Shown: one piece after another, positions 2,404 to 28,482 of the stretch
Layout of the letters: each line of letters starts with the position of its first letter
How positions within the stretch are numbered: position 1 is the first letter of the stretch
Translations under genes and position numbers: made by a program
The notes under the pieces: generated by a model
Databases searched by the model: none
What the model was told of the DNA's origin: nothing
The model's input: the letters and a program-made list of their open reading frames with translations, nothing else
From: a virus
Reading direction: 5' to 3' (one strand)
Length of the DNA: 33,237 nt
Virus record (IMG/VR): IMGVR_UViG_3300042293_000483
Coordinates: 1 to 33,237 of that record

Positions 2404-2763
2404 TTACCTCTTAAACCAACTGAGGATCTTTCCTACCCAACCAGGCGTGGCCTTGTTCATCGCTGCCTTACGCCGAGCGCACCCGCCGCAAGGCTTGAAG
2501 CCGACAGCACTTGTGACATTGGCAACCACATCGCCCATGCCAAGGCTTGGTGCAGCCGTCGGTCTTTCCGCCGCACCTGGCGCTCCAAACAGAAGAGGCG
2601 GGTCGAGGTAGTTCCCGTTCCGCGTTTCCCGTTCCTTGCAGGTCGAACACTTGGTGGCGTCAAGGTTCTTGATGCAGAACGGTGACGTCCCTGCCACCCG
2701 CCAAGACTTGCAGTCCGTGATAGGTAGCGAAACGCCGTTGATTGTAATTGTTCCGAGTTCCAT
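2404..2763 (-). CDS. Small CxxC protein with tryptophan-rich cationic tail, 119 aa (unit I)
   Basis: The start at 2763 shares TAATG with the stop of the cysteine-rich gene upstream. The N-terminal part contains a Cys-x2-Cys cluster (CSTCKERE). The C-terminal third is the part shared with unit II: GDVV, AVG, PC(G)xC, then a basic stretch and the tail TPGWVGKILSWFK. That tail is short, basic and tryptophan-containing, like a membrane-active amphipathic helix. The CxxC motifs could bind zinc or form a disulfide. No named family; function unknown. Confidence 0.65.
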   Translation of the reverse strand: MELGTITINGVSLPITDCKSWRVAGTSPFCIKNLDATKCSTCKERETRNGNYLDPPLLFGAPGAAERPTAAPSLGMGDVVANVTSAVGFKPCGGCARRKAAMNKATPGWVGKILSWFKR

Positions 2764-4592
2764 TAGGTCAGGGTAATGATGGTGCCAGTAGATTTGCAAG
2801 ACGTGCCAGGCGATTGGAACGACCGTAAGCATGGTTGCGGGAGCGGGTTCGCGGTTGCCCAGGCTCCACCTGGTGAGCAGTCCTCACCCTGTGGGCAGCA
2901 TGGCGCAACCGTGTAGACGTACGGGTATGCGTAGCAACCGGTGCGCGGTTCAGGCATCGAGGGGCACAACGATTCCCATCCGTACACGAGCACAATATCG
3001 ATGCCACCGATGTTCACTGTGATGTCTTGCAGCGGCCAACCATCGGAAGCTTCGCAGTTGGTGACGTTCTGGAAGAACGCAATGTCCGTGCAGATCGAGA
3101 TAGTGCCGTTCCCGTATTCCTGAACGCGCTTCATCGTGTAGCGCGAGCCCATCGCGTATTCCGGGAACGAGAGGCACTGGATCACGTAGTTGTTGGCAGT
3201 CGCACTCGTCGCGGAGATAGCGGCGTTCGTGGTGTTTGCGGATGTCATGCGAGGCGGCGATGCAACTATCAAAGTTTGGGCCGCGCAGGCGTAGTATCGA
3301 GGGGACGAGGCCACCAAGGTGACCGTGATCTCGGTATTGCCGTTGGTGAACGCCACGCGGTCAACACTCAACGCATCGCCAGCAGCAAAGCCTGGTCGAT
3401 CGTTTGGAGTCTCTTGATCGCACAGCACACAACTTTGCCGATTACCAAACCAGAAGTACGCCGACCACGGCCCGATGCCGGTAGCCGTGACAAGTCCGCC
3501 GATACGGTTGTTGATGCGCTGCGCCATGTGCGCGGCGTTGCCGCTGAAGGTCACAACATCAAGGCCACAGACGCTTAACTTAATCGCTGGAAGAACACCC
3601 CACCCAGTGTTGACCGTATCTGCACTGATGTGCACTACGCCTGATACACCAAGGAACATAGCATCGAGTGACGCTTGTGCGCCCTCTGATGTCGGGTCAA
3701 TCTCCGGAGCGAAACAAGCCGGGAAGACGATGGTCATGACGTCCTCTACATGCGGTGCGCAGCCAGCACTGCCAAGCGAGTAACACGTTTGCACGTTGTA
3801 CGTCTCGTAGCGATCCTCGAAGCTTTCGCAGTAGTCGGGGATATCGTCGCAAATGGGCGTGATGCCGCAGCAGTCGCCCTCCGGTTCGCAGTCGGGGCAA
3901 ACCATGTACTCGATGTTGACTTGAGTGACTTGGCTCGGGCAGCTCGTGGGCGTTGACGGGTCGAGCACCGTGCAATAGCCCATAGTCTGCGTCATACTTT
4001 TGGAGAGGCTCACGATCTCCTTTGGTGGGCCGTGACCACATCGAACGTCCCACGGAACGCCGAGCGTCTCGATGCACGTAGTCGCCGTACTTTGAATGGT
4101 GACTTCCTTACCCTTGACGGTGCCGGATTGGTCAGCAAAGTCATAGCACTCCGCGATCAGTTCCTCACAAGGGAGTTCCGGGTCGTTTTCAATAACGGGG
4201 CTTTCCTCGATTTCAAGGTCGGCGATCCCGCCAGGTGTGCCCTGTTCCTGTAGGTCTGCGTAGCAGCACGGGTTTTCACCCAGGACGCGGTTCTTTACCT
4301 TGACCAATTTGCCGACGTTCACTGGCCAAGTCGACAACGGATTTGGACAAGGAATGGTTTCGAATCCGGTCAGGATGTACATACAGCAATCGTGGCTCAC
4401 GAAGTAGCACTTGTTTGCCAGGTCTGGCGGCGATGGTATTCCTATCGACAAAAGATAGCGCGGGCAAAACTCAATGCGGTCTGGGGCGTTCGTGCAATCG
4501 GGCGCGCAACAGTAATCCTCAAAGTACGTCTCACACTTGAGCGCGTACCAAAGGAGTCCATCCTGGCAACAGCATGACCGCCGTCGACTCAT
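2763..4592 (-). CDS. Large cysteine-rich protein, 609 aa (unit I)
   Basis: I count about 43 cysteines in 609 residues, starting with a CCC cluster at residues 7-9 and with dense groups near MVCPDCEPEGDCC and APCCPQGEDC. Spacing is irregular, without a clear repeated domain. No signal peptide or membrane segment is obvious. The region around residues 290-480 is cysteine-poorer and beta-like (serine, threonine, valine rich). The start shares ATGA with the upstream 38-aa gene. Its slot in unit II holds a 439-aa protein that is also cysteine-rich and also begins with CCC but is otherwise unrelated in sequence. It may be a virion-surface, extracellular or metal-binding protein; I do not assign a function. 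Confidence 0.75.
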   Translation of the reverse strand: MSRRRSCCCQDGLLWYALKCETYFEDYCCAPDCTNAPDRIEFCPRYLLSIGIPSPPDLANKCYFVSHDCCMYILTGFETIPCPNPLSTWPVNVGKLVKVKNRVLGENPCCYADLQEQGTPGGIADLEIEESPVIENDPELPCEELIAECYDFADQSGTVKGKEVTIQSTATTCIETLGVPWDVRCGHGPPKEIVSLSKSMTQTMGYCTVLDPSTPTSCPSQVTQVNIEYMVCPDCEPEGDCCGITPICDDIPDYCESFEDRYETYNVQTCYSLGSAGCAPHVEDVMTIVFPACFAPEIDPTSEGAQASLDAMFLGVSGVVHISADTVNTGWGVLPAIKLSVCGLDVVTFSGNAAHMAQRINNRIGGLVTATGIGPWSAYFWFGNRQSCVLCDQETPNDRPGFAAGDALSVDRVAFTNGNTEITVTLVASSPRYYACAAQTLIVASPPRMTSANTTNAAISATSATANNYVIQCLSFPEYAMGSRYTMKRVQEYGNGTISICTDIAFFQNVTNCEASDGWPLQDITVNIGGIDIVLVYGWESLCPSMPEPRTGCYAYPYVYTVAPCCPQGEDCSPGGAWATANPLPQPCLRSFQSPGTSCKSTGTIITLT

Positions 4593-4705
4593 TTGCTGCC
4601 CTTACTCCTGCACCAGAAGTAGCCGGCTAGGGTCCCGATCAAACCTAGCGTTATGCTGAAGAATAGACTGGAAAGTACACCGTCAAGCGTTGCGAGATTT
4701 AGCAT
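4589..4705 (-). CDS. Small membrane protein, holin candidate, 38 aa (unit I)
   Basis: Residues about 9-31 form one hydrophobic helix (GVLSSLFFSITLGLIG, then TLAGYFW) followed by the basic tail CRSKGSK. It overlaps the upstream 46-aa gene by 23 nt in another frame and shares ATGA with the cysteine-rich gene downstream. A very small single-pass protein next to a spanin-like gene fits a holin or pinholin, but no homology is claimed. Unit II has a homolog of the same length. Confidence 0.6.
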   Translation of the reverse strand: MLNLATLDGVLSSLFFSITLGLIGTLAGYFWCRSKGSK

Positions 4706-4823
4706 TTGATGCCTTTGTGGGAGTTCGGGTTCTGCGGAAGGTTGAGCCAACGCTGCACCCGGCAGCGAAGGTGAGAATTACAAGTCCTAAGAGCCAGGTC
4801 GTATATTGGGCAGTCGTAAGCAT
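4683..4823 (-). CDS. Small membrane or lipoprotein-like protein, 46 aa (unit I)
   Basis: A hydrophobic segment at about 9-25 ends in FAAGCS, which loosely resembles a lipobox, followed by a basic, threonine-rich tail. There is no positively charged N-terminus. Its start overlaps the spanin stop as TGATG. It could be a holin or a second small lysis lipoprotein. The gene is almost unchanged in unit II, including the first 31 residues. Confidence 0.6.
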   Translation of the reverse strand: MLTTAQYTTWLLGLVILTFAAGCSVGSTFRRTRTPTKASNAKSRNA

Positions 4824-5119
4824 CAGCGGCCTCGTGGTATGTAGGTGTAGATCAGTGCTCCGATTACAGCGGCCACCACTGCAATCGATACATACTGGAA
4901 CGTCGAGTAAATAGCAGGAACATCATCAGAGACGTAGGGGATCCGTGCCGAAATCTCAGCGGCCAGCGCCTCGATGCGCTCGAGCTCCGCGTTCGCTTTC
5001 GCCAGGTAAGAGCGTGCCGACGTCGCCGCCTCTCGCGAAGTGTTGGCACTTTGCGAGATCGCCGCCGTGCTCGATGCACAGCCGGTGAGCAGCAGGACGA
5101 TGACGGCGAGGTACAGCAT
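4823..5119 (-). CDS. Unimolecular-spanin-like lipoprotein, 98 aa (unit I)
   Basis: The N-terminus (MLYLAVIVLLLTGC) ends in a lipobox with Cys14. A helical, alanine- and glutamate-rich middle (about 25-62) follows, and then a C-terminal membrane helix at about 76-93 with the basic end PRGR. This topology, outer-membrane lipid anchor plus inner-membrane helix, is that of u-spanins such as T1 gp11, which disrupt the outer membrane at lysis. It is short for spanning a periplasm. The N-terminal region has no lysine or arginine before the hydrophobic stretch, which is unusual. The start shares TGATG with the spike stop. Nearly identical in unit II. Confidence 0.65.
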   Translation of the reverse strand: MLYLAVIVLLLTGCASSTAAISQSANTSREAATSARSYLAKANAELERIEALAAEISARIPYVSDDVPAIYSTFQYVSIAVVAAVIGALIYTYIPRGR

Positions 5120-6615
5120 CAGAGAGCCAGCAATGCGGAGACAATTCGGCTAGTGACGATTTGGTATCCATCGTCCGCCATCGTTCCAGAACCCGCAGGA
5201 GGAATCGCGATAGTGGCTAGGTGCGATTGCCCGCCGTCGGTAGTGCCGTCGCCGTAGAGTTGGTACTTCAACAGCGTTGGCCCATCAATCATTGCACCGA
5301 TATCGACAACGCATACGTTGTCACCGGCAGACTGGCCCCACGCATTTGCTGCGGTGGACACTGCCGCACGACCCGTGGCCCACGAACCCAAAGTTTTTGG
5401 GTGTGTCACGGTAAAGACAAAAGCAATCGTGTCCGCGCTTCCACCAGACGCCACCCATCGTGCCTTCATTCTTGTAACAATGGTTTGCGCGTCAGCAGTC
5501 CAAGTGCCGCTAATGTTTACGCCAGCATTTAAGAAGACAATGGTGTTCCCGGAGCCGCCGCAAGCAACTTGGCGCTCTCGAATTTCCTTAAGAAATGCGT
5601 CGAGCAATTTGTCTGCACCAGTGATCTTGTTTGCAATCTGTGTAGTGGTCAACCCGCCGTAATAAACAAGGTTTGAAACTGAGTATCCACGGATGGCTGT
5701 ATTGATGACGGAATGCCACAATGCCGCAAATGGGCCAAGGGCTTGGTGGGCTGTAGTTGCGGAGTTGTATCCATCCCAACTAACGCGCAAGCCTCGCTGG
5801 CTTGAATCATTAAATGTTGGCGCGTAGGTATAGGATTGAGTTGCGTAACCGTAACCACCGCTAGTAGGTGTATCACTAGTCTCACGCTTTGCAACTCCGC
5901 CACCTGGCAACCAATACCACACCGGACGAAAACTCCCAGCGGTAGGGAATGTTCCATACACCAAACGATAAGTAAGCGTTGCCCCGGCTCCGTTTCCGTC
6001 CGTACCGAATACCGATTCAAATCCAAAACTTGTGTAACTTGCTACCGTTTGATTACTGACGTGGACATTGTTGTCATAAGTGGTAGTAAATCGCGTTCCA
6101 GTCTCTACAACAACTGGATTGACTCCAAATCCGTTTGCAGACAAAAGAGAATTAGTTGTTGAGTTAGTTAAATCTGATATTGACATTCCAAGATAATTAC
6201 GCAGTCCGACAATTTCTGTATCTGTATTTTGTGCCATCATCTTGCAAGGGCTTGGGCTATTCCCTACTGCTACTGTTGTGACAGCACTTGTACCAGCATT
6301 CGTTCCTATTCCTGCTTGGTTTACTTGCGTTCCCTGCGCCGTGCTTGTCGCGCCGGCGTTGAACATGCCGCCACCAAATAGGGACGTTCCGTATGGCTTG
6401 ATCCGCAGACCAAACTGCAACGCCCGTTGCCATCCCATGTGGTAACCGTTTGCACCGGCGTACATCGCGTTGCTATCGCCGATGGTGATTACGTCAAGTG
6501 AATCAACACCATTTGCGGCATCGAGCAGCATCTGTGCGGCCCTTGTAGATCCGTAGATGTTTGGCCCAGTTGCAACTGCGGATAGGACGGATTTGCGGAG
6601 CATGGAGGTAAACAT
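5119..6615 (-). CDS. SGNH-hydrolase-type tail spike or tip esterase, 498 aa (unit I)
   Basis: Residues 43-48 (ITIGDS) form the GDS block of SGNH/GDSL hydrolases, with Ser48 as the probable nucleophile. A block III-like NAGVN lies near residue 365, and a C-terminal D-x4-H (Asp460, His465 in DGGQSH) fits the Asp/His pair. The middle (about 80-330) is a beta-rich insertion typical of carbohydrate-facing domains. Position after the tail-tip genes suggests a virion protein that removes acyl groups from a surface glycan. The first residues (MFTSMLRKS) match the 51-aa ORF before the unit II spike (MLTSMFRKA), so the short head is shared and the enzyme body is swapped. Substrate unknown. Confidence 0.75.
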   Translation of the reverse strand: MFTSMLRKSVLSAVATGPNIYGSTRAAQMLLDAANGVDSLDVITIGDSNAMYAGANGYHMGWQRALQFGLRIKPYGTSLFGGGMFNAGATSTAQGTQVNQAGIGTNAGTSAVTTVAVGNSPSPCKMMAQNTDTEIVGLRNYLGMSISDLTNSTTNSLLSANGFGVNPVVVETGTRFTTTYDNNVHVSNQTVASYTSFGFESVFGTDGNGAGATLTYRLVYGTFPTAGSFRPVWYWLPGGGVAKRETSDTPTSGGYGYATQSYTYAPTFNDSSQRGLRVSWDGYNSATTAHQALGPFAALWHSVINTAIRGYSVSNLVYYGGLTTTQIANKITGADKLLDAFLKEIRERQVACGGSGNTIVFLNAGVNISGTWTADAQTIVTRMKARWVASGGSADTIAFVFTVTHPKTLGSWATGRAAVSTAANAWGQSAGDNVCVVDIGAMIDGPTLLKYQLYGDGTTDGGQSHLATIAIPPAGSGTMADDGYQIVTSRIVSALLAL

Positions 6616-7499: not shown

Positions 7500-8398
7500 T
7501 ATGCGATTGCTAGTGGCTTGGGGTTAGTCAACGCGGCAAGATCCAAGGCCGACAAGATGCCGGAGAACGCCGATAGCGTGTTGTAGCGTTGCAGGAAAAC
7601 CACCTTGTCGACTTGCAAGATTGGAACGGTGCCGATGGTAATGCCAGCAGTCAAGATCGGTTCGCCGGTGGGGTTTGGCGCCGGAATCTGCTCGAGGTGA
7701 AACCAGGCGTCGTACAGAAATGTGTGGCTCATCCGGTAGTAGTTGTCTTCCGGTGCAGTCTGAAAGCCTTGGTAAAGCAGAGTGCCAATTGGAAAGCCAA
7801 GGAACGCAGCGCTATTGCGGTTGCCGACGTACGAGGTGTAGGTAGCCCAATCTGGCTCAGCAGCTGGAGTCCCTTGCGGAAGCGTCCTGTCGTACTGCGT
7901 TTCAATGGTCACGAGTTGCTGAGGTACGTCGTACACCTTTGGTTTGCCGTTGGTGTCGACCTTATCGCCGGCAATGTCAACAGCCGCTGAAAAAACTACG
8001 CTTCCATTCGTTGGAAACGTGGGAGCGCTGCGGTACATGGCCGTAGATCGCACAACGGTCGCGCGTGTGCACGTGCAATACGAGCCGCCGTTGTCAAGCA
8101 TTGTCCCGTTGCGGGTGCTCGCTCGATGCGTGACGATCCAAGCGTTCTGCCGTTCCCGTACCGGCTCAATGGAAACCTCACGGATAACCATTGTCTTGAG
8201 GTAAGAATTGCCGCTGTAGACGCCTGAATTTAGTCGGCTAGGTGGCGTGCCTGCTGCTACAAGGATCTGTGCTTCCGTTGGCTGAGTGCTCGCACTGCTC
8301 CATGTCATCAGATACTGCACGGTGATTGAAGATTCACCTGGTGTCTGTGTCAGGGAGTAACTGCGGCTATTTGCACGTTCTACAAGTGTGAATGACAT
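7499..8398 (-). CDS. Distal-tail-like protein, 299 aa (unit I)
   Basis: Beta-rich protein directly after the tape-measure candidate, where siphophages keep their distal tail protein. It shares with unit II the pattern G-x-K-x-D-x-NG, R-x-SAAF or R-x-SVTF, then G(T)LLY-x-GF, H-x-F-x-D, and EQ-x-P-x-PNPTG. I do not see a named distal-tail domain, so the call rests on order and size. TAATG overlap with the upstream gene. Confidence 0.55.
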   Translation of the reverse strand: MSFTLVERANSRSYSLTQTPGESSITVQYLMTWSSASTQPTEAQILVAAGTPPSRLNSGVYSGNSYLKTMVIREVSIEPVRERQNAWIVTHRASTRNGTMLDNGGSYCTCTRATVVRSTAMYRSAPTFPTNGSVVFSAAVDIAGDKVDTNGKPKVYDVPQQLVTIETQYDRTLPQGTPAAEPDWATYTSYVGNRNSAAFLGFPIGTLLYQGFQTAPEDNYYRMSHTFLYDAWFHLEQIPAPNPTGEPILTAGITIGTVPILQVDKVVFLQRYNTLSAFSGILSALDLAALTNPKPLAIA

Positions 8399-9135
8399 TA
8401 CGAGCCACCTTTCAAAATCCGATTCTGTTCGCGCATGAGTCGCAAGTTTTCTGCGTCAATGATTGCGTTCTTCACTTGTACGTCGCGGTTTTTGTTGTCG
8501 CTCATACCGGCCGTCATCTCTTGGCCCATCGTGCCAAGTTTGCCGACATCGACTCTGCCGCCTTGATCGAGAATGTCCGAATTAAGAAACGGCATATACC
8601 CTTGCAACTTTTTGAAGCGCGATTTGTTTGAAACAGGATCTATAAGGTTTTCAGGCGACTTCATCATCTCTGCTGCGAATGCCATCGAATCGTTGTACAA
8701 AGACATTGCATCTTGCTTTAGGCTTTCAAAGAACGCGATTTGTCCAGCTCCGTCTGCAACGTCTGTCTCCGCACGTCGTTGAATTCCACCACGTTTGGCG
8801 CGTTCCGCACCGGCTACGTCGATACCAAACGTGTTTGCCATGAATTCCTCGCGTCGCAATTCAAGCATCTTGGTTTGCATGATGCCTCGTTGCGCTTCAG
8901 GAGAGAAGCGCGTAGACATTGCTGCCAAATCAGTCATGCGCCGATCCATGATCCGGAATGCACCCATCAGCATTTGAAAGCCCATCTGCGCCATATTGAA
9001 CGACGCACCGACAGCAATAGCGCTGGTCTTGCTGTTCAACTTAGCCAACTCGCGATTGGTTGCCGCCACGCCCTTGATGACGCCGGACGGATCAACTTCA
9101 GCGCGAATGACAGCCTTCATGCTCTTATCTGCCAT
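8398..9135 (-). CDS. Short tape-measure-like protein, 245 aa (unit I)
   Basis: It sits directly after the chaperone ORFs, the usual tape-measure slot. The N-terminus (MADKSMKAVIRAEVDPSG, then RELAKLN) resembles the start of many tape-measure proteins, and the rest is helical with a hydrophobic stretch at about 41-60. Tape measures are usually 500-2000 residues, so this is very small. At about 0.15 nm per residue of helix it would set a tail of roughly 35-40 nm. The unit II homolog shares the first 35 residues or so and then diverges. Alternative: a tail-tip chaperone or minor protein. Confidence 0.5.
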   Translation of the reverse strand: MADKSMKAVIRAEVDPSGVIKGVAATNRELAKLNSKTSAIAVGASFNMAQMGFQMLMGAFRIMDRRMTDLAAMSTRFSPEAQRGIMQTKMLELRREEFMANTFGIDVAGAERAKRGGIQRRAETDVADGAGQIAFFESLKQDAMSLYNDSMAFAAEMMKSPENLIDPVSNKSRFKKLQGYMPFLNSDILDQGGRVDVGKLGTMGQEMTAGMSDNKNRDVQVKNAIIDAENLRLMREQNRILKGGS

Positions 9136-10357: not shown

Positions 10358-10904
10358 TCGTATTCCCCATTCCGAGGATCTTGCGAGCCTCAATCAGAAT
10401 CTCGGAACTGATCGCTTGCATGATCTTGGCTACGTTTGCCTTGCCCCACATCTCGCCGTAGTGGTTGCCGGGGATCATGCGTCCGGAGTGCTTGTGCACA
10501 AATCCGTTCTCTGTCCAGGGGAACACAAACTGCCGGCCGCGTGCGCGTGCGCCGCCCTTCTTGCCAAGTTGCACCCCGAGCTCGGCGCGGATTGGTGCGC
10601 CGGCAGGGCCCATTCGCTTGGGCGAACTGACGCGAGTAGCGGAGGCAATCGCCTTGCGGTGGACCTTCTTCCCGCTGCGGATGTAAGGCGCATTCAGCAG
10701 GACGGCTCTCAGGTTTGCCACGAAGGGCTTGAAGCCCTTGCGGATTGCCTTCTTCCGGACGGCTTCGTTGAGCGCTGGCGAAAGTCGCGCTAGTGTCTGC
10801 GTCACTTCCTTGGTATCGATGGTGATGCGGACAGCACCAGACGTGCCTACAGACCCGCCGCTACCCCTACCCGCTGGGCCCATGTATCGATCGTGGAATC
10901 TCAC
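10344..10904 (-). CDS. HK97 gp10-like neck/tail protein, 186 aa (unit I)
   Basis: Basic protein with a tail-component HK97_gp10 look: an N-terminal variable part, helix ALARLSPALNE...RKKAIRK-type, then a region rich in Gly-Lys-Lys (QLGKKGGARARGRQ) and a C-terminal helix ISSEILIEARKIL. It probably sits at the head-tail joint. Starts GTG at 10904, overlapping the head closure stop as GTGA. Unit II is 36 residues longer because of an Arg/Gly-rich insertion before the final helix. Confidence 0.65.
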   Translation of the reverse strand: MRFHDRYMGPAGRGSGGSVGTSGAVRITIDTKEVTQTLARLSPALNEAVRKKAIRKGFKPFVANLRAVLLNAPYIRSGKKVHRKAIASATRVSSPKRMGPAGAPIRAELGVQLGKKGGARARGRQFVFPWTENGFVHKHSGRMIPGNHYGEMWGKANVAKIMQAISSEILIEARKILGMGNTSVPK

Positions 10905-11224
10905 GGCGTCACCTCCGCAGCAGTCACGCGCAAGCGTTTCTTACGCCCACTGTCCGGGTCCACCAGGCTCAACACGTTGTACGCGGTTCCGTTGAGGACC
11001 AGCCGGCTACGCGTGTTGATGATCGGACTCCAGGCAGTCTCGATATCCAAGTTCGTCCGTATCGCCGAGCCGCGATCATCCATGACCTCGCTCTGTGAAC
11101 TTGTGACCATGCCGCGAACCGTGCCGACATTTAGCCAGGCTAATTGTGCTTGGCCAAATGCGTCAACCGTCTGTGTAGACGTTTGCACCGTCAAGACTTC
11201 GCGCCAGAATCCACATCCGGCCAT
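10901..11224 (-). CDS. Head closure (head-tail adaptor) protein, 107 aa (unit I)
   Basis: Fits the SPP1 gp16 / Phage_H_T_join head-tail adaptor group: QTSTQTVDAFGQAQLAW is the typical 'VD-x-x-G' start, followed by strands and the end NGTAYNVLSLVDPDSGRKKRL. It plugs the portal channel after DNA packaging. Only a few substitutions separate it from unit II. Next to the connector gene, 3 nt apart. Confidence 0.75.
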   Translation of the reverse strand: MAGCGFWREVLTVQTSTQTVDAFGQAQLAWLNVGTVRGMVTSSQSEVMDDRGSAIRTNLDIETAWSPIINTRSRLVLNGTAYNVLSLVDPDSGRKKRLRVTAAEVTP

Positions 11225-11227
11225 AAA

Positions 11228-11509
11228 TCATCCGATCGATTGGTCTGAGTGCATCCGCCGTATGGTTTGGATGAACGGGTGCGGCTCGGGGGTCACGGCG
11301 TCATCGCCGCGCCACGGTTCAAGGCCACCGACTTGCAGCCGGATAGCCATCCACTCTTCCTCCGACATCACCGCCACGCCACGGTTGGTCGCAGCCTCCC
11401 ACATGGAGACAGCCGCGCGCAAGGAAGCGGCGATAGCCGGATCATCTTCCTGATGACCCTTTTTTAGCCATTGCCTGACGTCATCTAAATTGGTGGGAGT
11501 GCCAGGCAT
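11228..11509 (-). CDS. Head-tail connector protein, 93 aa (unit I)
   Basis: Small helical protein in the slot of HK97 gp6-like connectors, directly after the capsid gene. The N-terminal LDDVRQWLKKGHQEDDPAI and a second helix MWEAATN suit that fold. The C-terminus (DDAVTPEPHPFIQTIRRMH) is almost identical in unit II. ATG at 11509 is chosen because GGAG lies about seven bases upstream; GTG at 11521 is an alternative. Confidence 0.7.
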   Translation of the reverse strand: MPGTPTNLDDVRQWLKKGHQEDDPAIAASLRAAVSMWEAATNRGVAVMSEEEWMAIRLQVGGLEPWRGDDAVTPEPHPFIQTIRRMHSDQSIG

Positions 11510-11523
11510 GATGTGCTCCACGG

Positions 11524-11556
11524 CGGCGGGGGAAGGGCCGAAGCCCCGCCCCGCCG
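11524..11556 (-). promoter_or_regulatory. UUCG-capped RNA hairpin behind the capsid gene (unit I)
   Basis: In the transcript an outer 8-bp stem (CGGCGGGG with CCCCGCCG) leads through an internal loop to GGGC-UUCG-GCCC. It lies in the 62-nt gap between the capsid stop and the connector start, the only real gap in the head region. There is no U run after it, so it is a weak candidate terminator; RNA protection or translational damping of the downstream genes is equally possible. Unit II has a different sequence with the same architecture. Confidence 0.65.
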
Positions 11557-11571
11557 CTGCTGAGAGGATGA

Positions 11572-13323
11572 TTAGCCGTTAGTGACTTGCATCTGCACGA
11601 TGGCCTTCGCGCGAGTGAAGTTGCCGTTCATGAACATGGTGCCCTGGAACTTCACCTGGGCAGCTGCTGCCAGGCTCAGATCATCCCTCATGATCGTGGC
11701 GCCTGCCCACTCCCGGGCACTGTAGCCCTCGTTGTGATTGCCTAGGCTGATGATCGTGTTCTTGCCAGTGGTTGCGGTGCTGACGTGCGTCGGCAGGAAT
11801 TCGGTGACATAGACCGGAAGGCCCATGAGCGTGAATCCTGCACCAGCTTGGCCTACCGCATCGGCTGATGGGATAAACACGGGCACGCCATTGATCGTCA
11901 AGTTAGCGATCTTTGCGTACACATCCTGACTCATGAGCCAGGACGCGGTGCCCCAGTAACTCGCAGGGAGGCTGGTGTAACGCATCGCGGTGAGATTCGG
12001 CACTGTGCACGCTGCTGTTAAAGCAAGTGCGCGAGTTGTGCCGGTGCTTGTTGCAGTCGCGATCGTGCAACCAGTCTGCACTGTGAAGAGGCCAGTAGGC
12101 TGATTGAGCGTGGAACCGTTCGTACCGGTTGAACCACCACCAGCGATGAGGCCCCATTCCGCATTGCGAACGAACTGCCGATTCAAGTTGTCGACCACTT
12201 CGGCTTCCAGATCAAAGTTGCTCTGCAAGAGCAGCTGCTTCGACACCGTGGTGAACGGCAAGCACGCTGCCGGAGCCAGTGGAACTTCCGCGAAGACCGG
12301 ATTGATTTCGGTGCTTGCTTGTGTGCCGACGTCGGAAACGGTCCACGCATTTGCAATCGCGTCAGTGCTGAACAGCGTGTTGTAGCGCAGCGTTTGGTAG
12401 CCCTGCACGCCGGACTTGTAGTCCACCAGCTGGCGAGCAACAGTTGACACCTGGGCGTAGTGCGCCATAGCGTCGGTATACAGCTTTGGGATGAGGACCG
12501 AGTTGGTCGCAGGGTTCGCGGTGGTCATCGCTGCACGCTGTTCCGGCATACGGCCGCCGCGCAGGTAGCTCAGCCACTGGTCGCGGTACTCGGGCGATGC
12601 GCGCCACTCTTCGCCAGCGTCGCGGCGATCCATCGTGCGCTGGATCGGGGTCGCAGCCTCGCGGATGCCATCAGCGGCAGCCATCGCGGCGTTGCGGGCC
12701 TCGGTGATCTCCTCGATCTGTGCGACGATCTCGGCGCGGGTTTCTGCTTCAGTGCCTTCGACGTTCTGCGCGCGCAGTTCTGCGAGCTTTGCATTCATGG
12801 TGCGGATGTTCATTGGCTTGATTACCTTTGTGATGACTGGCGTTTCTTGTGAGCGGACTTGAGCAGTGGTGGCGTTGTATGCACCCTGCTCGACGATTGA
12901 AATCTCTCTGAGATTGACTGAATTGAGTGTGCGCTTCTCACCGGCCCACGAATCCCCACCAGGTGGAACGGAAAACCCGAAGGACATTTCGGAAACCACT
13001 CCGCGGCTGACCAAATCCAACACCAGCGAATCGCGCTCTGAACTGCCGAGCGTGGCCGTGTATTTGAGACCTTGCGCGTCCGACTCCAGGGTGAGTGTTC
13101 CGCTCTTGGTGTTGGCGAGAATCTGCTTTGAATCGTGCATAAACCACAGCGACGCACCGGCTGCGATCGATGCGTCAAACGCACCAGGCGCGATGCGCTC
13201 GGTGAATGTGCCCTTCGCACCCATGAGCGGCTTGCTCCATGAGTTGTAAAGAGCGGCGTAGCCGGTGATGGTCTTGCCTTCAACAGCACCGATGGATGCC
13301 TGGCGTGTTTCTAAATCACTCAT
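11572..13323 (-). CDS. Fused prohead protease and major capsid protein, 583 aa (unit I)
   Basis: Residues 1-160 are an HK97-type prohead protease: His63 in WFMHDS, Ser114 in VSEMSFGF and Glu140 in LREISIVEQ fit the catalytic set. Residues about 172-240 form a charged helical delta/scaffold-like stretch (NAKLAELRAQNVEG and IVAQIEEITEARNAA). The rest, from about 255, is an HK97-fold capsid protein with typical segments such as VSKQLLLQS, LMSQDVYAKI and GLPVYVTE. In HK97 protease and capsid are separate genes; here they are one frame, so self-release is expected. The start overlaps the portal end by 8 nt. The protease half is near-identical to unit II while the shell half has diverged. Confidence 0.9.
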   Translation of the reverse strand: MSDLETRQASIGAVEGKTITGYAALYNSWSKPLMGAKGTFTERIAPGAFDASIAAGASLWFMHDSKQILANTKSGTLTLESDAQGLKYTATLGSSERDSLVLDLVSRGVVSEMSFGFSVPPGGDSWAGEKRTLNSVNLREISIVEQGAYNATTAQVRSQETPVITKVIKPMNIRTMNAKLAELRAQNVEGTEAETRAEIVAQIEEITEARNAAMAAADGIREAATPIQRTMDRRDAGEEWRASPEYRDQWLSYLRGGRMPEQRAAMTTANPATNSVLIPKLYTDAMAHYAQVSTVARQLVDYKSGVQGYQTLRYNTLFSTDAIANAWTVSDVGTQASTEINPVFAEVPLAPAACLPFTTVSKQLLLQSNFDLEAEVVDNLNRQFVRNAEWGLIAGGGSTGTNGSTLNQPTGLFTVQTGCTIATATSTGTTRALALTAACTVPNLTAMRYTSLPASYWGTASWLMSQDVYAKIANLTINGVPVFIPSADAVGQAGAGFTLMGLPVYVTEFLPTHVSTATTGKNTIISLGNHNEGYSAREWAGATIMRDDLSLAAAAQVKFQGTMFMNGNFTRAKAIVQMQVTNG

Positions 13324-14491
13324 ATGGTGGGTCCCCTTCGTCTGCGTCTGCGAGATTCGCAGCGGGTGTGATGCCGGAGATCACCGGCGCCGGATCGTCA
13401 AGGCCTGCGATACGTGGCAAACCGAGCCGCACGCGTGCGTCGTTCGGTGCCAGGACGCCGACTTGCACCAGCGCCGCGTACGCCTTGCCGGCTGTGCGGA
13501 AGTCGCCTTGCGTGATAGGAACAAGATCAGTTTTGATGCGCTCACCTGGTGGGAGCAGCTTGCGCGATAGTTCCGCATCGATGCCGGCGCAGAACGGAGC
13601 CAAGCAATGCGTCACGTAGGCCTGTGCGATCTCAGGTTGTGAGCGCCCCTCGCCCTGATAGAGCAGTTGCGGAGGCACGCCGAATGCACGCGCCACCTCT
13701 TCAACGCCCATCTTCTTGGCGTCCATCAAACGAGCGGCAGCGTCCGCAGCCATCTGCGATGCCTTCATGCCTTCGCCGAAGAACGCCGGGAAGCCAAGTT
13801 TGTCTGCGCCGCTGTGTTGCTCTGCCCACTTAGTACGCATCGAATCGCGCGCCGTAGCAGTCAGGGGCCCGGGGTGCTCGATCGCGAGCTTTCCGACAAA
13901 GCCGGATTTGGCCAGTTCCTCAATCGCTTGGTCCAGAATGGCTTGAGTCCCAAGCACGCGAGAGCACTGATCAATCGGAGACACCCCGAGCCATGGGCTG
14001 CGCGGGTCCGTCGAGGCCCGCACATGGATCAGACTTGAGTCATCCACCACCGAATTGTTGACGATGTAACGGGCTTCTGACCCCTTAATCTCAACGCTGA
14101 CGGCAGACGGGTCAACCGGATCCAAAGCCACCGGATCGCCGGTGCGGAGATCGCGCCGGATGAGCAGGTAGCCATTGCCGAAGTAGAGAGCCGACGTCGC
14201 CAGCCACTTACGCATTTCGTATCCACTCAGGAAGGAAGCGGTGTTCCCGTAGAGCAGATCGACCGCGGGCGAGTCCTCAACTACGGACCCGTCGCGGCGC
14301 GTTACAGTGAGATCCAACCGCGCTGAATCGGTGCTGATCAGATTCACGGCACGCACGATGGCGGGGACGCCGAGTAGATCAGCGGATACCGTCGTAAACG
14401 TCAGCGGTGTGTAGCTGATGATCGTTTGCGCGATCGGGCGGCGGAAGAATTTACCCAACCATGATCCCATTCCCGTACTACACCATGACAT
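13316..14491 (-). CDS. HK97-family portal protein, 391 aa (unit I)
   Basis: Ring-forming DNA entry and exit channel at one capsid vertex. Family features: PAIVRAVNLIS near residue 45, ALYFGNGYLLIRRD near 105, SPWLGVSPIDQC near 170, GVPPQLLY near 275, and the C-terminal PNDARVRLGLP. Length is normal for the family. It is followed with overlap by the protease-capsid gene. A second ATG seven codons in (MGSW) could be the true start; neither has a strong ribosome site. Many positions are shared with unit II, with clustered changes at residues 7-45 and around 80. Confidence 0.9.
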   Translation of the reverse strand: MSWCSTGMGSWLGKFFRRPIAQTIISYTPLTFTTVSADLLGVPAIVRAVNLISTDSARLDLTVTRRDGSVVEDSPAVDLLYGNTASFLSGYEMRKWLATSALYFGNGYLLIRRDLRTGDPVALDPVDPSAVSVEIKGSEARYIVNNSVVDDSSLIHVRASTDPRSPWLGVSPIDQCSRVLGTQAILDQAIEELAKSGFVGKLAIEHPGPLTATARDSMRTKWAEQHSGADKLGFPAFFGEGMKASQMAADAAARLMDAKKMGVEEVARAFGVPPQLLYQGEGRSQPEIAQAYVTHCLAPFCAGIDAELSRKLLPPGERIKTDLVPITQGDFRTAGKAYAALVQVGVLAPNDARVRLGLPRIAGLDDPAPVISGITPAANLADADEGDPPYE

Positions 14492-14590
14492 TTCACGAAT
14501 GCAATAGCGCCTACATACACCGCGTCAACGGTGTGTAGACACTATTTCAGATTGTGTATGCGGCGTACGTACGCGCAGTAATCAGAAGCC
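14487..14590. promoter_or_regulatory. 104-nt terminase-portal junction, identical in both units
   Basis: Identical to 31437-31540 while the coding sequence on both sides differs at many bases. It contains a hairpin at 14511-14538 (ACACCG/CGGTGT with loop CGTCAA, extended by CTAC/GTAG across a 2-nt bulge) and a perfect 12-bp palindrome GCGTACGTACGC at 14563-14574. On the minus strand TTGACG is followed 16 nt later by TATTGC, a passable promoter pair for the head operon. Could be a promoter, an operator, or a packaging-related site. Confidence 0.5.
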
Positions 14591-16234
14591 CGGCTGAGTC
14601 TCGTACATCGATCCTCCCATGATCTGCAGATCGTTCAGCACACGCGCCGCCATGACCTGCGCGGTGAGCGCATCGATGTTGCTCGTGCTCTTCTGCTTCA
14701 CCGGCATGGCCAGTCCAGTGAGTCCGACATAGAGCCGAGCCGACGCCAGGCACGCTCGCAGCACTGGGTCCGGCTTGCATCGGATGCGTTCGGCGCGGAT
14801 CCAATCGCTCCAAACGGCCCAACCACCACCCATCCAGACGATTGTCTGCGGTGCTTTGTGCCATTTCCACCCGTGTTTTCGCTCCATTTGGGCAGCCCAC
14901 GCGCTCGCTTTACCGACCGGATCGGCGACAAAAGCGCGCACGTCGTACGTCCGACAGATGTCTACAAGCCTTGCTTCGACCAGATCGAGGTCGATTGTCG
15001 GCCCACCAGCCAGCGAAAGAGCGTGTTCATCGACCCATTTCTGCAGCGGTTGGCGCGTTCGCTTCTCATCGAAAGCGATATCAGCGCCGGCCCACCAGTG
15101 ATATCCGCGCGTGTGCACCTTCGTCCCATCCCACACGGCGAGGCACAGCGAAGTGAGATCGCACTGTGAACCGAACGCGAAGCCGCCCTGGCTAAAGTCC
15201 ACCGCCACCACACCGGCTGCGCCCTGCAACATATCCCAGTCTTCCTCCACCGAAACACGGTCGAGTAGCTCGAGCGGCAGCGCGCCGGCGAGGTCATCCG
15301 TGAACGTAGCGAGTTCCTGCAGCCACGTTTCCTCGCGTGCTTTCGGGTCTGCGGTCGCCAGTGCGTTAGCGATCTTGTCACGGATGACGCGGATGCCAGC
15401 GCCAAGTACGCCGGCGCTCGGGTTCGCGTGCTGCACCGCTAGGTCAGAGTCCGGCACATCGTCCGTATCCATGCCCCACAGCATCGCCCACCACCCTTCC
15501 GGCAGCGGCGTCCCCTGGTCAATCGCGAGTTCGCACGCTTGCCAGTAGGGCCAGAGTTCCCGCGACTTCTGATCGCGATCGGGCGTGGTGATGAACAGCA
15601 TCTGCCCCGTCGGTGACTTGGTGACCGATGACATTCCGCGCAAAATTGCCGCGTCCATGCGACTAGCTTCGTCCGCGATCAGAAGCCGCGGGACCAGACC
15701 GTCCATACTTTGATCAGTCGATGGGAACGCGTTGAATACAGCCTTCTTGTGTTGGATCAAACCGGAGGTAGTCGAAGCACCACCACCCACCGAGCGCCAC
15801 CGGTCCTCGCCGTTGTGCATCTTGGCGATACGCCCGTGGATGATGTTCGCTTTCATTTGGTTGGTCGCCACCGCGCACAGTTCCATATCCTCGCCGGTGG
15901 ACAGCAGCCACTCGAGCAGCGCCACCACCAGCCCCGTCTTGCCGGCTCCACGGGCCACCGACCACAGCGCGTAGCGCGTAGCCGGAGTGCCATCGTCCGC
16001 ACGCCGGCGCGCCAACAGGACCGCACAGACGTGGACCTGCCAGGGCAGGAGCTTCATGCCCATGACCTGAGCGCGGCTCACGAACGCGTCCAGTTGCGTG
16101 CCGTCCCACGCGATGCCGTGTTCACCTGGCGCGTATCGCTCTGCCAGGTAACGGGCACACGCCGCCTTGATGCGCTTCGGCGCCGGCACGGTACCCAAGA
16201 TCACGCCCCTGGCGTACCCGTCCGATCGCTCCAT
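14582..16234 (-). CDS. terL: Large terminase subunit, 550 aa (unit I)
   Basis: Packaging ATPase and nuclease. The N-terminus (YARGVILGTVPAPKRIKAAC) is the usual start of HK97-like large terminases. Walker A is ARGAGKT at 94-100, Walker B LLIADEA at 184-190, and the coupling motif ITTP at 215-218. The RNase H-like nuclease domain shows Asp346 (VVAVDFSQG), Asp438 (FVADPVG) and Asp521 (SNIDALTA). ATG at 16234 fits the family start; the same frame stays open for 134 more codons across the HNH gene, but that stretch has no terminase likeness. No clear ribosome site precedes 16234, so a nearby alternative start is possible. No small terminase gene is seen next to it. Confidence 0.92.
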   Translation of the reverse strand: MERSDGYARGVILGTVPAPKRIKAACARYLAERYAPGEHGIAWDGTQLDAFVSRAQVMGMKLLPWQVHVCAVLLARRRADDGTPATRYALWSVARGAGKTGLVVALLEWLLSTGEDMELCAVATNQMKANIIHGRIAKMHNGEDRWRSVGGGASTTSGLIQHKKAVFNAFPSTDQSMDGLVPRLLIADEASRMDAAILRGMSSVTKSPTGQMLFITTPDRDQKSRELWPYWQACELAIDQGTPLPEGWWAMLWGMDTDDVPDSDLAVQHANPSAGVLGAGIRVIRDKIANALATADPKAREETWLQELATFTDDLAGALPLELLDRVSVEEDWDMLQGAAGVVAVDFSQGGFAFGSQCDLTSLCLAVWDGTKVHTRGYHWWAGADIAFDEKRTRQPLQKWVDEHALSLAGGPTIDLDLVEARLVDICRTYDVRAFVADPVGKASAWAAQMERKHGWKWHKAPQTIVWMGGGWAVWSDWIRAERIRCKPDPVLRACLASARLYVGLTGLAMPVKQKSTSNIDALTAQVMAARVLNDLQIMGGSMYETQPGF

Positions 16235-16316
16235 GGCGGTGTCGACGCGTTGAATACTTGTAGCCGTGGGTTCTTCCTGCGGACCGACGGTCCCACAAGG
16301 CGGTGCCCAAGGGACC

Positions 16317-16636: not shown

Positions 16637-16850
16637 CTCCTTGCCTTTGTTGGTGACGGGTGACGCTTGGTGACGCTTGTTTGCATATGAGTAGCCACGG
16701 GCGCGCGCGTGCGCGTGCGTGCTATGTCAGAAAGAAGCGTCATAAGTGTCACCAATCTAATAAGTCCACGTTCTGTAGTTGGAATATTGCCAAATGTCGA
16801 TTTCATAATGTGTCACCCAATGCGTCACCATGTGTCACTAGTGTCACCCC
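16637..16850. other. Repeat-rich region between HNH and helicase, candidate replication origin
   Basis: GGTGACGCTT occurs twice in tandem (16659-16668 and 16669-16678), after another GGTGAC at 16652. The inverse GTCACC/GTCACT occurs at 16748, 16812, 16824, 16834 and 16843, about 9-12 nt apart in the last four, where they overlap the helicase 3' end. Between the two groups is a 22-nt alternating purine-pyrimidine run (16701-16722), able to adopt Z-DNA, and an AT-richer stretch around 16740-16810. Iteron-like direct and inverted repeats next to an SF3 helicase suggest an origin. Inference, not shown. Confidence 0.45.
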
Positions 16851-18107
16851 TGAGAAGCCCCGCGAATGCTTCGTACGCTCTGCAACGATCCCACGGGCCT
16901 TTAGGTCTGGCCCAAGCCGCCTCATGCTCTTTGGATGTATGCCGTTCTGAGCACACCAGTGGCTCCATGACGCCATGATCTGTGCGCTGCTTACCCATCC
17001 ACTCTCCACCCGCATGGTGCAATCTTGCAGCCAAGCGCCAACCGTGTCCTGATCATCGAGGTAGCCCGCCGTTGCCTTCAGGATCGATTCCGGTGGACGC
17101 AAGCCGCCAAGAGTCGCCCATTCCTCAAAGCCCTCCATAGCCCAACGTAGGACGCCTCCCGCCTCCTCCCTGAGTTTCGCTCCGAGGTCGCCATCCGGCT
17201 TCTCTGGCTTGTTGGTGAATGGCACCATGCACAACCGCCTACGCATGGCATCGTCAACCACCGCAATCTGCGGCGCATGGTTCCCCACCACCAGCAGCTT
17301 GAAGCACGGCGTGAACTCAAACCAATCCTGCCTCATGTGCCGAGCCACCACCACATCGCCGCCAGTCAGTTGCTTCAGTTTCGCGTCATCCCACTTGCGC
17401 CCTTCCTGCGTTTCATTGGCAATGGCCAAGCGCGCACCCTTCAACATGGCAATCTCTGCCGGATGCCGGTCGCCCTTACTCTCCATCAGCGCGTCCATTG
17501 GCAGCGTCTTCGCGTACTCGCCCCAGGCATACCGGATGGTGTCGACGAACACGCTCTTACCGTTTCCGCCTGGTCCGTGGATGAACAGAATGCAGTGTTC
17601 CTTGGTGCTCCCGCTCAGCGCGTAGCCGGCCCAGCGCTTCAAGAACGCAACCACCTCCGCATCGCCACGTGCAGCCTCGAGCAGGAACGCTTCCCACCTG
17701 GTGGTCGATCCACCTGGCTTAACGCCTACGCGCTTGGTAATGCTCAAATCGAGCAGCCGATTAATGGCGCTACCCTCGATCAGGTCATACACATCGTCAG
17801 GCGCGCCGAAGCCCCACAGATGCTGATCCCAGTCCGCACTACCAACCACCAAGCCATCGAACGATTCAGCCACGGACGCAAAGTAGCGCGCCCAGCTGCC
17901 AGTGTCGTTTGGATTCGCTTTGGCTGCGCCCTTGATGATCTCGCCCTTCACCATGTTCAACCGGTCGCGCTCCCACACTCCCGACTGGGCCCGCGTGTAC
18001 CAACTGTTGCTATCCACGCACCACCGATACTCCAGCTTGATCGCTTCCTTGCACCACTCCCGTGCAGCGGCATTCGCCTTTACCTTTGACTCTTCTTGCA
18101 TTTCCAT
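16803..18107 (-). CDS. P4/D5-type superfamily 3 DNA helicase (unit II)
   Basis: Same protein as at 89-1393 with two amino-acid differences (Q17E and S41Q in the 434-residue reading). Walker A GPGGNGKS, the SF3 motif C LLVVGNHAP and the RRR cluster are unchanged. Many codons differ silently, for example in the arginine and leucine codons of the RRRL segment. GGAGG six bases before the ATG at 18107 supports this start over the ATG at 18113. The GTCAC repeats are read in frame at the C-terminus, encoding the V-T and D-T pairs of the last residues. Confidence 0.9.
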   Translation of the reverse strand: MEMQEESKVKANAAAREWCKEAIKLEYRWCVDSNSWYTRAQSGVWERDRLNMVKGEIIKGAAKANPNDTGSWARYFASVAESFDGLVVGSADWDQHLWGFGAPDDVYDLIEGSAINRLLDLSITKRVGVKPGGSTTRWEAFLLEAARGDAEVVAFLKRWAGYALSGSTKEHCILFIHGPGGNGKSVFVDTIRYAWGEYAKTLPMDALMESKGDRHPAEIAMLKGARLAIANETQEGRKWDDAKLKQLTGGDVVVARHMRQDWFEFTPCFKLLVVGNHAPQIAVVDDAMRRRLCMVPFTNKPEKPDGDLGAKLREEAGGVLRWAMEGFEEWATLGGLRPPESILKATAGYLDDQDTVGAWLQDCTMRVESGWVSSAQIMASWSHWCAQNGIHPKSMRRLGPDLKARGIVAERTKHSRGFSGVTLVTHGDALGDTL

Positions 18108-18127
18108 ATCCATCCTCCATGAAATGG

Positions 18128-18162
18128 CCGCAGGGGTGCGGCAGCACGTCCGACCCCTGCGG
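18128..18162 (-). promoter_or_regulatory. Inverted repeat just upstream of the helicase gene (unit II)
   Basis: CCGCAGGGGT (18128-18137) pairs perfectly with ACCCCTGCGG (18153-18162) around a 15-nt loop. The unit I copy is one pair shorter. Located in the 60-nt gap before the helicase. Probably an operator or leader hairpin; no U run follows. Confidence 0.5.
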
Positions 18163-18167
18163 TGCGG

Positions 18168-18428
18168 TCACTTGACCGCGTTTGCTCGTTGTTCGCTTTC
18201 GATTGTCCGGAACACCAACTGCGCGAGGTTGTTCAGCCTCTGCAGCGCGTCAGATTCATTCATACGCCCAGCGCTGACCTCATCGCAAATGCCCTCGATG
18301 CGCCGTGCAATGGTCTGAATGATGTTTCCCTGCAGGCTCGCTTTATCGCGGAAGTGGTCCACCTCACGCTGCAAACCCGCCGACGTACTGCGCCAATACT
18401 CCGTGTCGTATTTACGGATAGGGATCAT
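18168..18428 (-). CDS. Small conserved early-type protein, 86 aa (unit II)
   Basis: Homolog of 1454-1714 with one substitution in the shared length (KASLQ for KATLQ). Begins MIPIRKYDTEYW. The ATGA overlap with the upstream small membrane gene supports this start; a GTG ten codons upstream is the alternative. Helical and charged, with no family recognised. Strong conservation beside the helicase suggests that it acts in replication or its control. Confidence 0.7.
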   Translation of the reverse strand: MIPIRKYDTEYWRSTSAGLQREVDHFRDKASLQGNIIQTIARRIEGICDEVSAGRMNESDALQRLNNLAQLVFRTIESEQRANAVK

Positions 18429-18541
18429 TCCTCGCCCCGCTTCCGCACCGGCTGGCACGCTTCATGCTCAGGGCACAGAAACAGCATCAGGAAGACTCCC
18501 ACTGACACCAGGCACGCGATCACTGTGAATAGGTCAGCCAT
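18425..18541 (-). CDS. Small single-pass membrane protein, 38 aa (unit II)
   Basis: Homolog of the 1711-1827 gene, with one change (L19M). One hydrophobic helix, then the basic and acidic tail QPVRKRGEE. It overlaps the RHH gene's end by 8 nt and shares ATGA with the next start, as in unit I. Conservation of frame and protein in both units argues that this very short ORF is real. Confidence 0.6.
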   Translation of the reverse strand: MADLFTVIACLVSVGVFLMLFLCPEHEACQPVRKRGEE

Positions 18542-18728
18542 TGCGGACCTCCAGTAGCGCAGCCTCTACGGTTCCGTAGTGAGCACGGGCCGCCGAACGA
18601 ACAAGCTGGCGCACCACGTGCACCTTGGTAGACCCGTCGTACTTTGCAATCGCTTCCAACAGACCATCAGTAACGAGGTCTACACCGATCATTCTGCGCT
18701 GATTGTTGCGCTCCTTGCTGTCCATCAT
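18534..18728 (-). CDS. Putative ribbon-helix-helix DNA-binding protein, 64 aa (unit II)
   Basis: The core from RRMIGVDLV onward differs at one residue from the unit I protein, while the first ten or so residues are unrelated (MMDSKERNNQ). GGAGG is four bases before the first ATG and seven before the second, so the start may be one codon later at 18725. Short strand plus two helices fit an Arc/CopG-type regulator. The conserved element at 18771-18802 lies just upstream. Confidence 0.55.
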   Translation of the reverse strand: MMDSKERNNQRRMIGVDLVTDGLLEAIAKYDGSTKVHVVRQLVRSAARAHYGTVEAALLEVRNG

Positions 18729-18826: not shown

Positions 18827-19108
18827 CTATATGCGCTTAGTACGCATCTTATCGACAGCCGAGGAAATTTGCTTGAGCCTTTCAGCGGTTTTTTGAGCAA
18901 TTTTGCTTGTGCGCTTTTCCTCATCCTGAGCCACCAATAACCTACGTACTGCGCGCTCATAACTAAAGCCCACCTTGAACCTCCAGTCCCACTGCGGGCC
19001 CGGGTCAGCCGTAATCGTCCACTTGCCCTGAGGATCGGTGTCCTTGCGGCATAGCCACCATTCACCACGTTGGCGATCCAGTTTCTCAATTAAGCCCCGG
19101 TGTTTCAT
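18827..19108 (-). CDS. Conserved hypothetical protein with DTDP...WDWR motif, 93 aa (unit II)
   Basis: Diverged homolog of 2112-2384. Shared: the C-R-K-DTDP-x-G-x-WT segment, DP...WDWR, RAVRRL, and VDKMRT near the end. The region between (about 58-82) is a charged helix (EEKRTSKIAQKTAERLKQIS). No family known. It begins the small-gene cluster after the CxxC protein gene. Confidence 0.65.
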   Translation of the reverse strand: MKHRGLIEKLDRQRGEWWLCRKDTDPQGKWTITADPGPQWDWRFKVGFSYERAVRRLLVAQDEEKRTSKIAQKTAERLKQISSAVDKMRTKRI

Positions 19109-19127
19109 ACCCGGACTCTACGCCCGT

Positions 19128-19343
19128 TTACCCCTTGAACCAACTGAGGATCTTTCCTACCCATCCCGGCGTAGCCCTGTTCAGGGCTGCTTGGCGCTTC
19201 TGACACGCTCCGCAGGGTTTTATCCCTACCGCCTTGGTGGCGCCGGCAACCACATCGCCCACACCTGGCGTCGGCTTCGCACCAGGGATGATCAGCGTAT
19301 CGCTTTGAACCGGCTTGCCATCGACGATGTTCCAATATTTCAT
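19128..19343 (-). CDS. Small CxxC protein with tryptophan-rich cationic tail, 71 aa (unit II)
   Basis: Start at 19343 (MKYWNIVDG) shares ATGA with the stop of the cysteine-rich gene. The shared C-terminal part with unit I runs GVGDVVAGATKAVGIKPC, then GAC, a basic linker and TPGWVGKILSWFK. The N-terminal part is unrelated to unit I and 48 residues shorter. The CxxC pair may bind metal. The short aromatic, basic tail could be membrane-active; this is unproven. Confidence 0.65.
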   Translation of the reverse strand: MKYWNIVDGKPVQSDTLIIPGAKPTPGVGDVVAGATKAVGIKPCGACQKRQAALNRATPGWVGKILSWFKG

Positions 19344-20659: not shown

Positions 20660-20772
20660 TTGCCGCCCTTAGTCCTGCACCAGAAATACCCTGCCAGAGC
20701 TCCAATGAGCCCAAGCGTTGTTGCAAAGAAAATAGATGATAGGAACGATTCAGCGCTTGCGAGGTTGAGCAT
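20656..20772 (-). CDS. Small membrane protein, holin candidate, 38 aa (unit II)
   Basis: Homolog of 4589-4705: MLNLASAESFLSSIFF, then a hydrophobic run to GYFWCRTKGGK. Same length, same membrane helix, same basic tail; changes cluster in the first ten residues. ATGA overlap with the cysteine-rich gene and 23-nt overlap with the 46-aa gene are kept. Confidence 0.6.
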   Translation of the reverse strand: MLNLASAESFLSSIFFATTLGLIGALAGYFWCRTKGGK

Positions 20773-20890
20773 TGGAAGCCTTTGTGGGAGTGCGGATGCG
20801 GCGGAATGTTGAGCCAACGCTGCACCCGGCAGCGAAGGTAAGAATTACAAGTCCTAAGAGCCATGTCGTGTATTGGGCAGTCGTAAGCAT
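20750..20890 (-). CDS. Small membrane or lipoprotein-like protein, 46 aa (unit II)
   Basis: Homolog of 4683-4823, identical through the membrane part (MLTTAQYTTWLLGLVILTFA, then AGCSVGSTFRR) and differing only in the basic tail. TGATG overlap with the spanin gene. Same alternatives as in unit I: holin or small lipoprotein. Confidence 0.6.
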   Translation of the reverse strand: MLTTAQYTTWLLGLVILTFAAGCSVGSTFRRIRTPTKASNAQPRKR

Positions 20891-21186: not shown

Positions 21187-21191
21187 TAGAT

Positions 21192-28179: not shown

Positions 28180-28182
28180 GGA

Positions 28183-28470: not shown

Positions 28471-28482
28471 GGCACCTCGCTA

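Follow-up and report, generated by a model that had tools for sequence, protein, structure and literature searches.

Exchangeable receptor-binding and tail-fibre cassettes of phages combine a tail fibre with an adaptor or a Tfa-type chaperone, and diversity-generating systems of the Mtd type vary phage tropism proteins. Here we analysed a virus contig of 33,237 bp (IMG/VR record IMGVR_UViG_3300042293_000483, positions 1 to 33,237; the window) in which two unrelated cysteine-rich proteins, A and B, occupy the same slot, each followed by a small CxxC protein (the partner). The locus resembles tail fibre–Tfa cassettes in being a late two-gene unit with a constant attachment part, a replaceable body and a partner that follows the body, and in the tail-module neighbourhood of the cysteine-rich pair in other phages. 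That location is found in unrelated phages, whereas in the phages of the window presumed lysis genes separate the pair from the spike. The locus differs from such cassettes in that neither body nor partner matches tail-fibre or Caudo_TAP families in Pfam, PHROGs or NCBIfam (Caudo_TAP was also absent from a search of the contig record); in its cysteine leader of about 8–9 residues, bodies probably scaffolded by cysteines and KPCxxC partner tail; and in assorting independently of the spike. With Mtd-type systems it shares a proposed purpose, the changing of a contact surface, but it does so by replacement of the whole cassette and is under purifying selection within families. A search of the contig record for reverse transcriptase (RVT_1, PF00078) gave no match, with controls positive in 3 of 14 genomes.

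Two genomes in one contig

Comparison of the contig with itself aligned positions 1–2006 with 16715–18718 (94%) and 10888–16237 with 27843–33184 (80%), and the related contigs L003 (16,658 bp) and L052 (15,902 bp) carry 127-bp direct terminal repeats, as found in complete circular assemblies. The relatedness of the halves, together with these repeats, means that the window consists of two different but related phage genomes of around 16.6 kb placed end to end, with the same join point at the primase/terminase junction. The double contig arose most simply as an assembly join of co-occurring strains. A and B are the slot proteins of the two separate genomes, one each; we refer to these phages and their relatives as the 16-kb group.

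All of the genes located below are on the minus strand. Upstream of the slot, the genomes encode a variable spike, which is a spike-like protein of 498 amino acids without a Pfam match in the first genome (5119–6615) and a protein of 687 amino acids with Pfam matches to Mtd_N (E = 2.5e-11) and a pectate-lyase-like domain (E = 8.1e-9) in the second (21192–23255). It is followed by a spanin-like protein (4823–5119, 98 amino acids; 20890–21186 in the second genome) and by a small membrane protein that is the same in both (4589–4750, 53 amino acids; 20656–20817). The spanin-like protein has a lipobox-type N terminus and a C-terminal hydrophobic segment, which we take to be the layout of a one-protein spanin; its PHROG match to Rz-like spanins reached only E = 0.11, and its function is a prediction. 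The small membrane protein, a presumed member of the lysis cassette, forms the conserved left flank of the exchanged region.

Elsewhere in the two genomes, tape-measure-like proteins, read as such from the sequence, have just 245 and 229 amino acids (8398–9135 and 25241–25930), which would imply a very short tail; the first had no match in a PHROG search. The major capsid protein is apparently fused to a prohead protease (11572–13323 and 28531–30273), and isolate phages match this product in parts, as protease and as major head protein.

Cysteine-rich proteins A and B

Protein A (2763–4592) has 609 amino acids, 43 of which are cysteines (7.0%), and begins with the leader MSRRRSCCC; at its start it overlaps the small membrane gene that precedes it. 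Protein B (19340–20659) has 439 amino acids, 37 of them cysteines (8.4%), and begins with MSHKKCCC. The other 38 genes counted in the contig have 97 cysteines in 9,170 residues (1.06%; maximum for a single gene, 3.4%), and the binomial chance of the observed contents is 6e-22 for A and 1e-21 for B. The initial annotation had described two proteins with CCC starts and 7–8% cysteine in the same slot, flanked by a lysis cassette and a small CxxC protein, and had stated that their bodies do not align. All of this was borne out: small membrane and spanin-like proteins lie upstream and the CxxC protein downstream, and hhalign gave the profiles of A and B (20 and 18 sequences) a probability of 0.5% (E = 0.12), whether the first 14 residues were kept or cut. 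At the DNA level, similarity between the genomes reaches the start of the slot (4588–5123 versus 20655–21190) and resumes only within the downstream gene (2369–2537 versus 19096–19261). That the slots belong to two joined genomes, and that the CxxC protein is part of the exchanged unit (see below), goes beyond that description.

Within families, cysteines are the most conserved residues of the slot proteins. In alignments of 19 A and 12 B sequences, 41 of 43 and 34 of 37 cysteines are invariant, compared with 209 of 609 and 156 of 439 residues overall (34–36%); the smaller alignments of families D and E have 14 of 16 and 8 of 14 cysteines invariant. The bodies tend to be acidic and contain many aromatic residues, and hydropathy revealed no signal peptide or transmembrane stretch (highest 19-residue value, 1.46).

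A match to a common intracellular enzyme family would have spoken against a surface role, and none was significant in Pfam, NCBIfam, PHROGs or PDB-sequence searches. The slot proteins found nothing significant of any kind in the first three, and PDB sequence profile searches with A and B gave 0 matches at E values of up to 1. AlphaFold models of A and B have very low confidence (pLDDT of 33 and 42), too low for interpretation, and a Foldseek search with that of B gave no match below E = 0.8. No match was obtained by tblastn of INPHARED with A, with one family D protein or with the cysteine-rich proteins of two other lineages. A search of genome contigs for relatives of A yielded 50 candidate stretches, 0 of which were confirmed, and gives no host assignment.

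Six families with one leader

Slots were gathered from IMG/VR by scans with A (27 loci), B (4 loci) and the spanin-like protein (40 loci) and by a DNA pattern for the slot start (78 stretches), supplemented with other loci already collected. The related contigs gave 72 unique slots, 66 of them complete, and BLAST divided the complete slots into six families: B (18), D (16), E (15), A (9), H (6) and C (2). Their proteins range from 256 to 618 amino acids with 3.6–10.3% cysteine, and families D, E and H include short bodies of 256–292 amino acids.

All six families share a leader of the form M[S/T]xx(R/K)..CC(C). When it is kept, several pairs of families align over residues 1–12, with E values down to 1e-5 to 4e-6. 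When the first 14 residues are cut, no relationship is left in any of the 15 pairs (hhalign E of at least 0.036, probability of at most 1.4%), and these values do not demonstrate a fold common to all six bodies. The uncut comparison of D and E, though, includes an alignment in the second half.

Because the DNA pattern and the slot filter require R/K-type bases at codon 4 and cysteine codons at or near position 7, and so favour CCC-type starts, leader counts in the slots collected by pattern are not independent of the search, and we repeated the count on loci anchored by the spanin-like gene only. These 40 loci include 32 with a complete slot, taken without a cysteine criterion. In all 32 the longest slot open reading frame (ORF) has at least 3.6% cysteine, cysteine at residue 7 and arginine or lysine at residue 4, with the start codon picked by its spacing from the spanin-like gene. 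The leader codons differ synonymously among slots; thus, it is the protein sequence that is kept, not merely the DNA.

A partner gene matched to the body

The partner of A (2404–2763, 119 amino acids) has an A-specific first half and a constant tail, GMGDVVANVTSAVGFKPCGGCARRKAAMN; that of B (19128–19343, 71 amino acids) has a B-specific first part, MKYWNIVDGKPV, and the constant tail GVGDVVAGATKAVGIKPCGACQKRQAALN. Each starts in overlap with the stop of its slot gene. In most slots the partner gene overlaps or almost touches the slot gene, although its start codon could not be placed in some. The first half tracks the slot family, with LGTITI.GVSLPI.DCKSWRVAGTSPFC in the A type and KYWNI.DGKPV in the B type; in C, D, E and H the partner first halves are again family-specific, and D has at least two types. 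The last 45 or so residues are common to all families (GxGD..A..T.A.G.KPCxxCxxRxAAxN). From this combination of a family-matched first half and a constant tail it follows that the exchanged unit is the body gene plus the first half of the partner.

The partner tail matched PHROG 32048, a family of no known function, at E = 5.7e-5 over residues 90–130 of a 142-amino-acid reading of the partner, and that family has a similar GxGD...KPCxxCxxRxxxLN stretch. Nonlabens phages P12024S and P12024L also have a similar KPCxxC stretch. In P12024S, however, it lies near the N-terminal end of a 119-amino-acid protein, two genes before the terminase, and the neighbours of this protein are not annotated as cysteine-rich, unlike the slot pair.

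Frequent exchange of the cassette

Three pairs of slots have near-identical upstream DNA and belong to different families. In these, every 50-bp bin before the start codon is 90–100% identical, and identity falls to chance within about 24–36 bp past it; in the A/B pair of the window itself, the last 100 bp before the slot are already more diverged. Exchange is so frequent that the slot family can be predicted neither from the spike type nor from the spanin-like gene next to it. For the 60 of 66 slots with a recognizable spike, the mutual information between spike type and slot family was 0.359, compared with 0.336 (s.d. 0.045) after shuffling (P = 0.287). Slots with spanin-like proteins at least 95% identical had the same family in 16 of 48 pairs, against a random expectation of 20% (65 of 66 slots). 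The suggestion that the slot varies as the spikes do needs qualification, as slot family and spike type assort independently. Within families, median dN/dS is 0.076–0.149, indicative of purifying selection; D and C supplied few usable pairs. We conclude that the slot is almost certainly an exchangeable two-gene cassette of a cysteine-rich body and its partner.

The pair in other phages

Family A and its partner also occur in contigs of around 32–39 kb with other gene sets. In L019, L067, L087 and L088 the pair follows tail genes and a spanin-like gene; in L024 it lies between structural genes (PHROG major head protein upstream) and cysteine-free proteins of 1,196 and 2,011 amino acids. The larger of these (L024:15789–21821, open) has a C-terminal polyvalent-protein ADP-ribosyltransferase domain (PF18760, E = 1.3e-14).

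A scan with the alignment of the partner tail gave 80 loci, to which L174 was added. Among these 81, 2 lack the motif, 29 were assigned to the 16-kb group (L223 by hand) and 50 lie outside it. In 39 of the 50, the nearest upstream ORF of at least 100 amino acids has at least 4.5% cysteine (11 of these 39 loci are near-duplicates and were dropped from a further analysis). Counting ORFs of at least 150 amino acids, 36 of 38 upstream of the tail are cysteine-rich, compared with 3 of 271 other ORFs of the same loci. BLAST sorted the 39 upstream proteins into 22 clusters. CCC occurs close to a start codon (within 30 residues) in 16 of the 22 cluster representatives, and none has CCC elsewhere. One locus (L256) has a CCC protein with 4.2% cysteine, under the cut-off, and 8 of the 50 have the KPCxxC tail with neither a cysteine-rich neighbour nor a fusion. 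The tail also occurs, again without such a neighbour, in contigs of bacterial metagenome-assembled genomes (L171, L172 and L173; Acidobacteria, Myxococcales and Verrucomicrobiota). The rarity in phage proteins that the initial annotation attributed to such cysteine density is seen in this contig and in the isolate phages searched, whereas the arrangement is frequent among uncultivated phages.

In L174, one protein of 581 amino acids has DCCCD near its start, a cysteine-rich body and an end of the form GLGD...KIKPCKGCQRRQAALN (KPCKGC), so that both halves of the cassette stand in one chain. The contig is binned as Pseudomonadales, and the protein is identical to one in the viral contig L177 (51,981 bp); by tblastn it found nothing in INPHARED (best E = 0.7).

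Upstream neighbours in representative loci (70 of 83 used) matched 60 PHROG families, the 25 most frequent of which comprise 19 tail or virion families—including tape measure, minor tail, tail fibre, tail fibre assembly and virion structural—and 6 without a function. Pfam added five families, among them a tape-measure domain and a glycine-rich domain. Downstream neighbours (50 of 71 used) matched 41 PHROG families, and the 25 most frequent are 4 tail or virion families, 8 without a function and 13 of regulators, integrases and enzymes. One protein may match several PHROG families in these counts, which exclude ORFs on the minus strand, some of the small ones and the L245 duplicate. With tail genes upstream and mostly regulators, integrases and enzymes downstream, the pair tends to lie at the end of the tail region. 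L235 and L255 have the tape measure first, then one or two genes, then the cysteine-rich protein and its partner.

Proposed function and alternatives

The position of the pair among tail genes, together with the replacement of whole bodies, points to a component of the distal tail that makes contact with the host. We consider it probable that the cassette proteins belong to the virion tail, and close to an even call, leaning slightly in favour, that they contact the host; the joint proposal of a tail-tip part that meets the host surface and is swapped as a unit is, by a narrow margin over evens, the one we favour. Constant ends around a variable middle are read most simply as a socket. The body would be joined to the particle by the constant leader of about 8–9 residues (basic residues, then CC or CCC), one half of the partner would fit its own body, and the constant KPCxxC tail would bind a common site, such that CCC leader and KPCxxC tail may form a docking pair. 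A swap of the cassette would then replace the contact surface in one step. The cysteines may form disulfides or bind metal and thereby scaffold the body; as no signal peptide or transmembrane stretch was seen, such pairing or metal binding would take place only at or after assembly or lysis. Several observations weigh against the tail-tip proposal: the bodies match no family or PDB sequence, in the 16-kb group the cassette follows presumed lysis genes, these phages already have a variable spike of their own, the KPCxxC tail also occurs outside this pair, and the low dN/dS values carry no sign of point-wise diversifying selection. The host or surface interaction suggested by the initial annotation is nonetheless the most likely reading that we infer from body swaps, late position, tail-gene neighbours elsewhere and the lack of an enzyme match.

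The same tail-gene neighbourhood would suit a tail part of the virion with no receptor role—a plug at the tail tip, a collar or a stabilising decoration with a freely replaceable body—and independence from spike type would agree with a part not sharing the receptor. We regard this as unlikely, although it is the strongest competitor, as it leaves unexplained why a purely structural part acquires unrelated bodies more often than its neighbours. Somewhat less likely still is a secreted or lysis-time effector, set free with the lysate or displayed at the cell surface, that would for instance block superinfection or act on rivals, with the partner as carrier or guard. The constant start, variable body and matched neighbour recall polymorphic toxins, and both the 16-kb group and L019, L067, L087 and L088 have the cassette after presumed lysis genes. 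However, the constant part has only 8–9 residues and is not a delivery domain, no Pfam toxin domain was matched, and the partner has a C-terminal half that is constant in all families, so that it is not a fully toxin-specific immunity protein. The effector proposal is also at odds with the hydropathy result (no signal peptide or transmembrane stretch seen; maximum, 1.46), the tape-measure and minor-tail genes that adjoin the pair in other phages, and the fused version in L174.

Clusters of the CCC, CC and CxxC kinds, near-invariant cysteines and a CxxC partner could instead indicate a metal-binding or redox pair that handles zinc, iron–sulfur or copper in the infected cell. This appears improbable given long, mostly acidic, aromatic-rich bodies in six unrelated families, none of which has a family match; at 256–618 amino acids and 3.6–10.3% cysteine, the proteins are also not small, as metallothionein-like proteins would be. 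That the difference between A and B reflects only an assembler joining two phages, with nothing exchanged, is barely credible: the contig does contain two genomes, but the slot differs between flanks that are otherwise 95–96% identical in many separate contigs.

Beyond the tail-tip proposal, we tentatively raise the possibility, for which the odds are clearly lower, of a general phage ‘cysteine socket’, in which a constant CCC/KPCxxC docking, through a mixed disulfide or a shared metal, would serve unrelated bodies across lineages and be swapped independently of neighbouring genes. Such a socket is apparently undescribed so far; we found no paper recognizably on this module, which may have been described in other words. 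If correct, the tail-tip proposal would name a part of the tail module that current annotation overlooks in many uncultivated phages, and would supply a rule for its detection: a CCC start followed by a KPCxxC partner. It would also provide an example of host contact being changed by exchange of a whole cassette rather than by point variation, and would make it testable how a phage keeps a cysteine-rich protein functional despite its synthesis in a reducing cytoplasm.
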